Assembly (NCBI GenBank): GCA_016987375.1
Contig: PJRA01000412.1
Span: forward strand, 391,693-444,579
From: Brachionus koreanus
Taxonomy: Eukaryota > Rotifera > Eurotatoria > Ploima > Brachionidae
DNA length: 52,887 nucleotides
Direction of reading: 5' to 3'
A program made the position numbers and the translations under genes. Below the pieces are notes generated by a model. It was not told the origin of the DNA and made no database searches. It worked only from the letters and a program-made list of their open reading frames with translations. Below are positions 1 to 8,525 of the stretch, piece after piece; position 1 is the stretch's first letter; every line of letters starts with the position of its first letter.

Positions 1-1856
<1,856 letters not shown>

Positions 1857-3904: not shown

Positions 3905-5566
3905 TTAAGCGTAAAATTCTTTAGTCGGAGCTTTGATGTAAGCATAATTGAATGAGCCGTCATGATTTGGCGACGATGACGACGAATCACTGCTCAAAAT
4001 ACTACAACTCTTTTTAAGACTGGTCGAATGATTTGCGTATTTGAGCAATCTACTACCGGTCATAGCATTTCCATTTAATAGTCCTGTGGTAGCAGAGCTT
4101 GTCGAACCAGTGCTTAGATTTGTATTTGGAGAAACAGATGATGAAGACATGAGGGTTACATTTTGACCTTTTGGCTTAAAATTTCCATATATAGGAGAAT
4201 TTTTGGCATTTGAAATATAAGTAGAATCATCTAGCTTATTTTTTTTCATTCTATAAATTATGAAAAACAGCAAGACCATGGCGGTTATTACACCAACCAA
4301 AAGTCCACCACATATGCCTGCAATTAGAGCCGGACTCTTTAGCAATTCTTTTATTGTTAGGCCAATAAAGGTAGAATTGAGTGGAGCTTTTAATTCAGGC
4401 TCTCTAACATCTTCTAATTCGTAATCATTCCTATTATTGAATAACTCATTTGATAAATCAAAATAATTATCATATAAGTAGTCATCTTGTTTGGTAAACA
4501 AATCGTCTTTAATAGGACCAAAGTTATCATTTAAACTAGGCTTTGAAATAGATGGAGTTTGTGGATTGAGAATATGGATTGGTTGCTTAGTTGTCGTAGT
4601 AGTTGTTGTTGTTGCCTCACTTATTGTTGAAAGAGTGACTGATGCTAGATTTGGCACATTATTATTGATTTTATTTGAGACAGTGGCGTCAATTTTTATT
4701 TCTTTGTTCATAATTCCTAATTCATTGGTATTTAATGATAAATCTTTAAACTTATCTTCTAGTTCTGGTTCTGGTTCATAAAGAGAACTATAGAACTCAT
4801 CATAATAATCATAATTATCATAATAATAGCCCATATCAGTAAAATTTCCGTACTCTTCTTCTAAAAAATTAGATGAAGCAATCGTGGCCAATATTAAAGG
4901 CACAGTACTAGTAGGCTTACTAATAATTTTATTTTCTTTAGCTTTAAACACATTTTCTTGTCTTTCATTATTTAAATTTAAGTCCAAAGTTTCAGTGAAC
5001 AATGTTTTGTGAAGCGTGTTATCTGAAATATTTTGAATTGCAGATTTATTGCTTATTGTGTTAAAATCAGACCAAGTTTGGATTATTTCTATGGGTTTAG
5101 AAGTAGTGTTGATGAATAAGAAGTTAAGAATGGACAAGGATGATTTAGTCGTGTGTTGGGTTGTGGTAGATGGAGTTGTGGTAACAATACCTTTAGAATT
5201 AGACATTTCATAATAGTCATTATCGTCCAAGTCTTGGTAATAATCATAGTCAAATTTATCTGACGATACATTTTGAGAAATAGTTGGTTTGGTCGCTGGA
5301 ATATTAAAGTCAAATAGATTAGGTTTAATTTTAATCTCCTGTGTTTCATCTTGATAGTAATCTGTATAGTAGTCATCAAGCTTATAAAAGTCATCATAAT
5401 ATTCATCATAGTCATAGTAATTGTTGTTGTATTCATTGGTAACATTCTTGCTTTTAAGCATAAATTCGGTGTGGAGTAGCGATCTATCGCCTTGCTTTAT
5501 TTGGGCTATTGACGCCGCGCTGATTAATTGAAATAAAGAAATAAAAAAAAATTTTTTGTATGTCAT
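3905..5566 (-). CDS. SDC: Syndecan, intronless, with long cytoplasmic V region and no Ser-Gly in the ectodomain
   Basis: A 553-residue type I membrane protein. Residues 1-21 look like a signal peptide (MTYKKFFFISLFQLISAAS). The ectodomain (about 22-411) is Thr-rich and acidic, with tyrosine clusters at 46-71, 106-119, 247-263 and 363-368, a run of eight Thr near 319-326, and seven N-glycosylation sequons (Asn 41, 99, 153, 173, 179, 241, 397). The membrane helix at 412-438 contains GICGGLLVG, matching the small-residue dimerisation motif of syndecans. It is followed by the C1 region RMKKNKLDDSTY (439-450) and the terminal C2 motif EFYA (550-553), preceded by KAPTK as in vertebrate syndecans. 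EFYA binds PDZ proteins such as syntenin. The variable region between C1 and C2 is about 99 residues of Ser/Asn-rich sequence, against roughly 10-25 in vertebrates. No Ser-Gly dipeptide, the usual glycosaminoglycan attachment site, occurs outside the membrane. The syndecan identity is firm from the tail and the membrane segment. Confidence 0.9.
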   Translation of the reverse strand: MTYKKFFFISLFQLISAASIAQIKQGDRSLLHTEFMLKSKNVTNEYNNNYYDYDEYYDDFYKLDDYYTDYYQDETQEIKIKPNLFDFNIPATKPTISQNVSSDKFDYDYYQDLDDNDYYEMSNSKGIVTTTPSTTTQHTTKSSLSILNFLFINTTSKPIEIIQTWSDFNTISNKSAIQNISDNTLHKTLFTETLDLNLNNERQENVFKAKENKIISKPTSTVPLILATIASSNFLEEEYGNFTDMGYYYDNYDYYDEFYSSLYEPEPELEDKFKDLSLNTNELGIMNKEIKIDATVSNKINNNVPNLASVTLSTISEATTTTTTTTKQPIHILNPQTPSISKPSLNDNFGPIKDDLFTKQDDYLYDNYFDLSNELFNNRNDYELEDVREPELKAPLNSTFIGLTIKELLKSPALIAGICGGLLVGVITAMVLLFFIIYRMKKNKLDDSTYISNAKNSPIYGNFKPKGQNVTLMSSSSVSPNTNLSTGSTSSATTGLLNGNAMTGSRLLKYANHSTSLKKSCSILSSDSSSSSPNHDGSFNYAYIKAPTKEFYA

Positions 5567-7761
5567 TTTCGATTAAAATTGAACTCCGTGTTTGAATGTG
5601 TTTTAAAAGCCCATCGCACGAATGCACAAATATTTTTATTTATTATTTTTTTCGATATTTGTTGAGGTATATCTAAAAAATCTACACAAAAATATTTAGT
5701 TTAAAATTAGACTTTTTGTTGTTGCTATTTTAGTTCTGTTGATTTGACTTGTTTGGTTCTTACTGAGCAAAATAAATCGAGTGCGAAAGACACAGCAGTC
5801 TTCGCACACATTTCTTCAGAAGAAACAATTAATATCTTATTCTCATAAAGTTTGGAGGCTTTATATTTGTTAAGCTAATTAATGGTTAAGCTTAAAAACA
5901 AATTTGACACAAATTGAAAGCCTAAAATTAGTTAAAGTTATCTAAAATTAATTTAATTTTAAATTCTGCTGGTTTGATTATCTTGGTCCAGATTTAATTT
6001 TTTATGTCTACATAGCAATATTGACTTTACAATTTAAGCCTTAGGAGTCAAACTTTAAGCACTTGAGCTTGTCTTGTAACAAAAATTAATTTAATTTATC
6101 TATCAGATGTTGATATTTGATTTGAAAAAAAAAAAATTTTTTAACAAGTTGAGAACTAAATGAGCTATATGCTTAAATCAATTGAAATTTTTGTCTGAGC
6201 ATTTTTAATCTATAGATATTCACTCAAGCTTAAAAGGGCTTAGGAAAACATTTGTTAAAAACAAAATTAATTTTGACTAATCTATGTGATATAATAAATA
6301 ATACAAATAAAACTAGTCAAAGTGTCTGGTTGAATGGTGTCAACTGGGGAAGAGTAATTAAGTCCAGATTTAACAAATTTGTTAGTCTAAATAAAAAACA
6401 AAATGCATTATTTATAGCGGTTATTCTCTCTTGATATAATGCTCATTGTTTGTAAACAATAAATCTTACATTCTCATGTTTATCTCTTTGATCATTTTCA
6501 TAAATGTTAATATTTGACCGTTATTCTAAACGATTTTGAATATATTTGAGAACGGAAAGTGTTATGCAAAAAGGTGGGTTAGAAATCTATTCAAATCATA
6601 AAAGAATTGCGACTGAATAGTAAAGACCAGAAAGGCTTGAGTTTGATCAAGATACACCGCCATAGGTTTGATTACAAAGCAACAAAAAATTTGTCTCTAA
6701 ACTAGACGTTGCCATTTATAATATGTTACAATAATTTTCATTTTAATAAGATATTGACCAGACCCTATCTAAAGATAAATTTATTTAAATTTTAATTAGT
6801 GTGGCTTTAAGAAACACCGAAAGAATTTTAAAAATTTGATTTAAAATTTTAGAAAAAAAATTTTAAGACCCAAAAATTTTTTTTTTGTATTTTTTTATTT
6901 TATTTTATTTACATCAATCTCGCTAGTTTATAAAATAGCTTAAATCTTAATCAAAACAATCTTTTCGCCGAATCTTTCTTGATTTAATAAGAAAAATTAA
7001 ATTGAAAAAAAATATTGCAATAATTTAATTGTGATTTGAAAAACGAGCTTGACAAAAAGCTTTATTATTTTTCTAAATTAAAAAAAAGGACAGCGGGCTA
7101 TTGCTATTGTTTTATGCTAGATTAGGTGGTTAACAATTCAATTTAAGAATTTTGCTTGGAACCATAAATTTTTTCAGTTTTTTTGACTTAAGTGATATAA
7201 TCTTTTAAGCGATTTTTGCTTAATAATTGTCCAAGCATGTGTAACAATTAGTTATATATATCCCGCGGATTTAGACTAATTTAGCACCACTGCTCTCAAA
7301 TAACAAAATCTAACCACTTGAAAAAAATAATTAAGACGATAAATCAACATATTTTTCAATATACTGTACACAAAAAAGTTTTAATAAGATTGCTTGTTTT
7401 AATATTATTTACCTTTGTTTTTAAATTATCACATTTTCTCATATCGAATTCACATAAATAATTAAAATAAATCTTAATTAAAATGTCTATTCATACATTT
7501 AATATTTGAATTTTTAATTAAAAACAAACATATATACAAAATTTATTTGGTCAATTGTTAAGGAACATAATATTTGAACATGATTTCATATTAATAAATC
7601 TCAAAATAATTAAGCTCACATGGTTAATTTTGTGAAACCAAACTAAAACACAAATTGTTCCAATTTATTTTAATAGAATAAAATAAAATAAAATCAAGAT
7701 TCCTTAAATAAAAGCTTGAAAAAATATATAATATTAACAATAACATTAGAAAATACCCAAA
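5567..7761. other. Intergenic, presumed syndecan promoter side, no gene seen
   Basis: AT-rich DNA upstream of the minus-strand syndecan gene. The longest open stretch (about 6252-6434, plus) is 60 codons without database-like features and has no splice context. I see no RNA gene, tandem repeat or recognisable element. Confidence 0.5.
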
Positions 7762-8525
7762 AAAATAAAATACCTGGGAGTGATGATCAATTCGAAAAAC
7801 GACAACAGTGATCATGTCGAGCAAAGGATAAAAAAAACAATAAAAAGCGTATACAGCATCGGAAACATTGACGTAATGAATACACCACTAAAAACAAATA
7901 TCAAAACCCGCCTCTACAAGATATTCTGCCGACCAATACTCACCTATGGATGCAAGGCAATCAAGCTTAACCAAATTCACTTGAAAAAAATTAAAACAAC
8001 AGATGGCAACTTGGTAAAGAAAATGTTTGGACTCTGCAAGAGATTAAGAACAACAAAACTGATAGCGGCCATTAATATGAAACCAATGGAGAGAATATTG
8101 GTAAAGAGAAAACTATCTTTCATAATGAGACTAGCAACAACAAATTTACAAAAACACTAGTGAACAATATCCTAAATGAAACAAGAGATAAAGAAAATAG
8201 AACTAGCAAAAAATCCTTGATAAATGAAATGAAAATCATCCTAGAAGAAAAAGACAATATAGAAAATATGGCAGCAAAAGCAAGAGATAGGATAAAGCTT
8301 GAAAACAAGCTTAATAAAGAAGAAAGCAAAGATGGAAAGATGGCGTCGATTAGGTATCTTTTTAGAGAATCGAGTGAGAAAAACAGAAAAATCCTAGAAC
8401 TACTCCTCAAATCATATTAAAATAGATTTTATTTTACTATATTTAATTTTTTATTTTTATTTTACTTTTTTTTTTAACATCGCTCATGAGGTGTTTTCTG
8501 AATAATAATCATAATAATATAATAT
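7762..8525 (+). mobile_element. 5'-truncated LINE, copy A, with RT C-terminus, 3'UTR hairpin and microsatellite tail
   Basis: From 7762 the plus strand reads KIKYLGVMINSK, the beta-strand motif after the RT catalytic core. It continues through TRLYKIFCRPILTYGCKAIK to about 8115, typical of the RT thumb and connection region. A one-base loss near 8135 shifts the frame. The last about 86 codons (8160-8420) are Lys/Glu-rich and end in LELLLKSY before a stop at 8418-8420. The 3'UTR is T-rich, then ACATCGCTCATGAGGTG forms a short imperfect hairpin at 8481-8493, followed by CTG and an (AAT)n-like tail. A shorter copy with near-identical sequence from 8137 onward lies at 33808-34192. The 5' truncation is the usual mark of incomplete target-primed reverse transcription. 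Confidence 0.75.

Follow-up and report, generated by a model that had tools for sequence, protein, structure and literature searches.

A second syndecan of the rotifer Brachionus koreanus with a long conserved tail and no Ser-Gly site in its ectodomain

Can a syndecan do without the Ser-Gly dipeptides that normally carry heparan or chondroitin sulfate, and what might its ectodomain carry instead? The question is raised by a gene in a stretch of 52,887 nucleotides from Brachionus koreanus (contig PJRA01000412.1, positions 391,693 to 444,579), which is called the window here. The first-pass annotation had described the product as a syndecan that lacks Ser-Gly, bears four Asp/Tyr clusters and might have exchanged sugar-borne negative charge for sulfotyrosine or acidic residues. 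The features of the gene, in window positions, are as follows.

3905..5566, minus strand: complete coding sequence of the long-tail syndecan, 553 aa, single uninterrupted frame, stop codon at 3905-3907
5501..5566, minus strand: putative signal peptide, residues 1-22, assigned by visual inspection of the hydrophobic start
4325..5500, minus strand: ectodomain, residues 23-414, with no Ser-Gly, one Ser-Ala (S175) and no confident fold
5330..5443, minus strand: acidic tyrosine cluster 1, residues 42-79, from acidity threshold and alignment
5198..5266, minus strand: acidic tyrosine cluster 2, residues 101-123, from acidity threshold and alignment
5123..5206, minus strand: mucin-like Thr/Ser-rich stretch, residues 121-148
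4763..4861, minus strand: acidic tyrosine cluster 3, residues 236-268, from acidity threshold and alignment
4562..4648, minus strand: mucin-like Thr-rich stretch, residues 307-335
4457..4486, minus strand: weaker tyrosine cluster 4, residues 361-370, under the threshold, with Tyr365 and Tyr368 conserved
4256..4324, minus strand: transmembrane helix, residues ~415-437, from the Pfam match and AlphaFold
4214..4252, minus strand: C1-like region, residues 439-451, without the DEGSY of ordinary syndecans
3950..4213, minus strand: V region, residues 452-539, expanded, conserved and Ser-rich
3908..3949, minus strand: C2 and predicted PDZ-binding end NYAYIKAPTKEFYA, residues 540-553, identical in 16 of 16 family members

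A simple base-composition model gives a probability of about 7e-20 that the 553 codons at 3905-5566 (minus strand) stay open by chance. Its start is signal-like, an in-frame stop lies directly upstream, and the homology to the relatives P0001-P0003 spans 100% of the protein length. The topology is that of a single-pass protein with one membrane helix, and the ectodomain contains seven N-glycosylation sequons and two Thr-rich stretches. AlphaFold, run with a nine-sequence alignment, predicted no folded ectodomain; the mean pLDDT was 38.4, and only the membrane helix region was confident. Among solved structures, the only match was a weak one to the syndecan-2 membrane segment (E=0.32). The gene adjoins, on the same strand, a frame at window positions 1-129 (minus strand) that runs off the edge and that resembles the start of elongation factor 1-alpha. 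In addition, two overlapping frames at 7750-8420 (plus strand) resemble, by eye, the end of a reverse-transcriptase-type retroelement.

The syndecan identity stood in part. The membrane segment, the EFYA end and a Pfam Syndecan match (PF01034) over the curated cut-off (34.5 bits vs 25.2, residues 408-451 only) all agree with it, but the C1 region is not an ordinary one, reading RMKKNKLDDSTY instead of RMKKKDEGSYAL and lacking the syndecan motif RMKKKDEGSY, and the protein is therefore filed as a divergent paralogue and not as a typical member. The same divergence was observed across the whole family, which comprises 16 long-tail proteins (the window protein and the 15 relatives found): DEG[STA]Y follows the membrane segment in none of the 16, whereas 120 of 121 ordinary syndecans carry it (the best 120 of 384 and the genome's own). 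At the C2 end, EFYA is present and the predicted PDZ-binding end is shared by all 16. Neurexins have the membrane-proximal motif as well, together with an LNS/EGF ectodomain and an EYYV end; Pfam found no LNS or EGF domain in the window protein, which ends in EFYA and not EYYV.

The tail after the membrane helix measures 116-148 residues in all 16 long-tail proteins against 33-40 in 118 ordinary ones (from the best 120 of 384, omitting P0065 and P0116, which have no FYA end), so that the window protein exceeds the usual length more than threefold. In a tree of 65 columns and 98 distinct sequences out of 137 (identical rows dropped), the 16 long-tail proteins formed one split, with a local support of 1.0 on one side of the root and 0.765 on the other. 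Identities between the window protein and P0001-P0008 ranged from 48 to 99% in the V region and from 23 to 56% in the ectodomain, with P0001 (99% and 56%) and P0008 (48% and 23%) at the extremes. The tail has thus been conserved more strictly than the ectodomain and is a likely seat of the family's own function. No Pfam profile matched the V region over a cut-off.

A Pfam search of the genome (83.26 Mb, 92 contigs) revealed an ordinary syndecan as well, located on contig 30 (G000:C30, L002, 1450-2124, minus strand), with 225 residues, a score of 90.5 bits, one acidic Ser-Gly site (DDESSGYYAYYDD) and the tail RMKKKDEGSYALEETKKPLNAYDYRNCPTKEFYA. No third place exceeded the cut-off in this search, and two fell below it (16.8 and 14.7 bits). 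Both paralogues have uninterrupted coding frames, and they match each other directly over residues 368-457 of the window protein (E=8.3e-6), with no ectodomain match reported before residue 368. Brachionus plicatilis also has both types among its named proteins: the partial long form P0004 (56% identity) and the ordinary form P0011 (72% identity). According to the portions available of a 2006 comparative study (PMC1464127), multiple syndecans per genome are specific to vertebrates and all syndecans have glycosaminoglycan sites, and an excerpt of a 2021 review (PMC8061687) states that all bilaterian invertebrates express a single syndecan. The present genome and the two named proteins of Brachionus plicatilis contradict these statements of a single invertebrate syndecan, and the window protein departs from the statement in PMC1464127 that glycosaminoglycan sites occur in all syndecans. 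Among the titles and abstract openings listed from the open-licence literature, we found no report of a natural glycosaminoglycan-free syndecan or of a rotifer syndecan.

The absence of Ser-Gly was confirmed. After the 22 signal residues, the ectodomain has 392 residues with 33 Ser, seven Gly, no Ser-Gly and one Ser-Ala. By itself this is unremarkable because glycine is scarce: composition predicts only 0.59 Ser-Gly, and 54% of the shuffles had none (P about 0.54). Depletion beyond composition was not significant in any of the 15 family proteins without Ser-Gly (P 0.33 to 0.87), and it is therefore not used as evidence. Counted across the relatives, as had been proposed, Ser-Gly is missing between residue 22 and the membrane segment from 14 of 15 as well as from the window protein; the exception is the distant P0006, which carries three, one of them next to a run of acidic residues; at least one relative may therefore be a proteoglycan. 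This count excludes Ser-Gly at residue 16 of P0002, in the signal peptide, and at residue 4 of P0132. The zero counts of P0004, P0008, P0129-P0131, P0133 and P0135 are weaker, because by eye these proteins show no clear signal peptide at the start and are perhaps incomplete. Because the dipeptide is missing from 14 of 15 relatives, a fault in the assembly and a strictly local loss were both rejected as its cause.

The striking point is how the family differs from the ordinary relatives, not the absence itself. Ser-Gly precedes the membrane segment in 115 of the best 120 of 384 matches to the genome's ordinary syndecan, a best-hit list and not a random sample, and with the genome's own protein added, 112 of 121 have a Ser-Gly that lies within six positions of two or more acidic residues. 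The ordinary relatives without Ser-Gly among these best 120 are P0087, P0116, P0119, P0125 and P0127. Two of them, P0116 (end SSREFFA, with a signal-like beginning) and P0125 (end SSKEFYA, named from the bdelloid Rotaria magnacalcarata), have an ordinary C1 and a short tail. Loss of Ser-Gly is therefore not restricted to the long-tail form, being seen in at least two syndecans that have ordinary tails and ends of the bdelloid type; in P0116 and P0125 it was possibly an independent bdelloid event.

Human xylosyltransferase 1 (XT1) requires Gly or Ala directly after the serine and favours an acidic environment, as described in the part of PMC5992326 concerned. The sole candidate of the window protein, S175 followed by Ala, is not conserved and lies in a non-acidic context (NTISNKSAIQNIS), so that a glycosaminoglycan chain on this protein is unlikely to judge by its sequence; the ectodomain has neither Ser-Gly nor a conserved Ser-Ala. 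Six of the 16 members (P0003, P0008, P0130, P0131, P0133 and P0135) have neither dipeptide in the counted ectodomain, though a clear signal peptide is seen in P0003 alone, and the other five appear truncated at the N-terminus.

The acidic tyrosine clusters proved to be real, exceeding shuffles and being conserved across the alignment. By a simple rule of our own, a tyrosine was scored as an acidic site when it had an acidic neighbour and the net acidity within five residues was 4 or more. The window protein has 11 such sites against 0.8±0.9 in its shuffles, and none of 2000 shuffles reached 11. Three separate Tyr/Asp/Glu stretches, at residues 42-79, 101-123 and 236-268, pass a 9-of-15 threshold; the fourth of the annotated clusters (about 361-370) fails it, though its Tyr365 and Tyr368 are conserved. 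The 13 long-tail proteins set against shuffles have 11-20 sites each, while all 16 have a median of 14 and a range of 1-20. At least four sites were found in 14 of the 16, with two members below four, against 20 of 120 ordinary proteins, of which 67 have none (drawn from the best 120 of 384 and the genome's own, omitting one protein with <50 counted residues). The genome's ordinary paralogue has one site, and among seven ordinary-tailed proteins tested, only P0015 exceeds its shuffles (4 vs 0.3).

Tyr51, Tyr107, Tyr118, Tyr119 and Tyr248 are kept in all nine aligned sequences, and 15 tyrosines of the ectodomain in seven or more; these positions persist in the alignment while the linkers diverge. 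Of 18 ectodomain tyrosines present in four or five of five close sequences, 15 have more than half promoting residues within five positions by a promoting/suppressing-neighbour rule adapted from the text available of PMC7310474, while Tyr247 (0.38), Tyr248 (0.46) and Tyr365 (0.50) do not. The same excerpt credits sulfation predictors with very moderate success. As a sequence rule, the fibromodulin-type pattern of conserved tyrosines among mostly acidic or turn-forming neighbours was also found in the window protein.

Does the animal possess the enzymes for either kind of sulfate? PF13469 matched 17 places in the genome, three of which coincide with better PF00685 matches (L017, L018 and L021), leaving about 14. 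Protein-tyrosine sulfotransferases (TPST) are encoded by one or two genes in well-studied animals; here, about 14 single-frame genes (L009-L016 and further places) are TPST-like, with the standard motif in L009 and L010, the latter resembling L009 by eye. For all three loci compared with solved structures, the best match was a protein-tyrosine sulfotransferase: L009, a TPST homologue, matched protein-tyrosine sulfotransferase 2 (E=1.1e-129), followed by L013 (E=1.6e-44) and L016 (E=1.5e-42). Two loci have a xylosyltransferase domain, with L007 matching xylosyltransferase 1 (E=7.1e-13), and two an EXT domain; L029 is an HS6ST homologue (E=2.3e-48) and L021 an HS3ST homologue (E=1.8e-71). This set of genes should equip the animal to synthesize sulfotyrosine as well as modified heparan sulfate. 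The presence of xylosyltransferase, EXT, HS6ST and HS3ST homologues led us to reject a loss of the entire glycosaminoglycan pathway. The heparan N-deacetylase/N-sulfotransferase profiles PF12062 and PF25119 had no match in the genome, a profile miss that does not show absence, and loss of this enzyme is possible despite the HS3ST and HS6ST homologues. Near-identical gene pairs on different contigs were noticed by eye (xylosyltransferase L007/L008, TPST-like L011/L012 and sulfotransferase L017/L018), which suggests recent duplicated blocks or retained haplotypes. The proposal that the animal exchanged its syndecan glycosaminoglycan is not supported, because it keeps an ordinary Ser-Gly syndecan and several glycosaminoglycan enzyme homologues.

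We consider it somewhat probable that the window encodes a lineage-specific second syndecan of rotifers, probably of monogononts, that has no glycosaminoglycan site and is no longer a standard proteoglycan, being a disordered, probably tyrosine-sulfated and O-glycosylated receptor. By its sequence, this proposed duplicate of the ordinary syndecan retains the membrane helix and the EFYA end, has no conserved xylosyltransferase-compatible site, has lost the standard C1 motif and possesses a long conserved V region; in its ectodomain, for which no fold is predicted, Thr-rich stretches and N-glycosylation sequons separate the conserved acidic tyrosine clusters. In the Golgi, the TPST of the animal would sulfate these clusters, and the sulfotyrosines, together with the acidic residues, may imitate a sulfated sugar chain in short, protein-borne form and bind basic (heparin-binding) ligands, much as the fibromodulin sulfotyrosine domain does. 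The ectodomain would present such ligands and signalling would pass through PDZ partners and the long V region, with the EFYA end still anchoring PDZ scaffolds and the new V region recruiting partners of its own, while the role of glycosaminoglycan carrier would stay with the ordinary paralogue. A bolder version, which we regard as unlikely, is that the duplicated rotifer syndecan became a protein-borne polyanion in which sulfotyrosine replaced sugar sulfate, together with a multiplied TPST-like family, possibly reduced heparan N-sulfation and a new 100-residue signalling tail.

Several other readings were weighed. The function of the glycosaminoglycan-free paralogue may reside in the long tail, the ectodomain being a mere acidic, O- and N-glycosylated spacer whose tyrosines are unsulfated or unimportant. 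A tail conserved far above the ectodomain, the two Thr-rich stretches, the seven sequons and the lack of a predicted fold would all suit such a spacer, but tyrosine positions kept as linkers diverge go beyond what a spacer needs, and shuffles do not produce such clusters; we find this account possible, if rather doubtful. The protein might instead carry a glycosaminoglycan part of the time, on the serine of the Ser-Ala or on some other non-standard serine: Ala at +1 is tolerated by human XT1 in vitro (per the excerpt of PMC5992326), xylosyltransferase homologues exist in the genome and P0006 has three Ser-Gly. This is improbable, as the single Ser-Ala is unconserved in its non-acidic surroundings and six of 16 members lack both dipeptides, five of these looking N-terminally incomplete.

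The remaining two readings question the gene itself. An alternatively spliced ectodomain exon with Ser-Gly could have been missed by the gene model, which we hold to be very improbable in view of the signal-like start, the upstream in-frame stop, the full-length homology in P0001-P0003 and the restriction of ectodomain Ser-Gly after residue 22 to P0006 among the relatives found. An unrelated single-pass protein could have converged on a syndecan-like helix and EFYA end: DEG[STA]Y is absent from all 16, and the protein resembles ordinary syndecans only in the membrane region and at its very end. The Pfam match over the cut-off, the direct match to the ordinary paralogue and the membrane pattern and PTKEFYA end shared with ordinary syndecans argue against it, making convergence scarcely credible.

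A natural syndecan core without a sugar-chain site, beside one that keeps it, separates the roles of core, tail and chain in a small, easily cultured animal. If the tyrosines are sulfated, the pair would allow one to ask directly whether a protein can take over from a sulfated sugar chain as the polyanion at the membrane.

Among known systems, the ordinary invertebrate syndecan (the genome's own and P0011) shares with the window protein a signal-like start, an acidic, tyrosine-bearing ectodomain, a membrane helix of the same pattern and the PTKEFYA end, but differs in having an acidic Ser-Gly site, 216-225 residues, the C1 RMKKKDEGSYAL and a 36-residue tail. Vertebrate syndecans 1-4 are likewise more than one per genome and have distinct V regions, which are short. 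The rotifer duplication is presumably separate from the vertebrate one. Unlike the window protein, the vertebrate syndecans all have glycosaminoglycan sites, as stated in the portion available of PMC1464127. As works-like comparisons only, the N-terminal domains of fibromodulin and osteoadherin also place extracellular tyrosines among Asp/Glu (excerpt of PMC7310474), and the fibromodulin tyrosine-sulfate domain is described in parts of PMC7310474 and PMC9372746 as a glycosaminoglycan mimic that binds heparin-binding proteins; these are, however, leucine-rich-repeat matrix proteins and not membrane receptors, and sulfation is proven for fibromodulin but inferred for the window protein. In its layout of no predicted fold, sequons and Thr-rich stretches, the window ectodomain resembles, by analogy, mucin-type sulfotyrosine proteins. 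PSGL-1 is a works-like example, a mucin-like glycoprotein of the cell surface whose flexible segment bears a sulfotyrosine cluster (excerpt of PMC9372746), though it has three N-terminal tyrosines where the window protein has clusters along its whole ectodomain.
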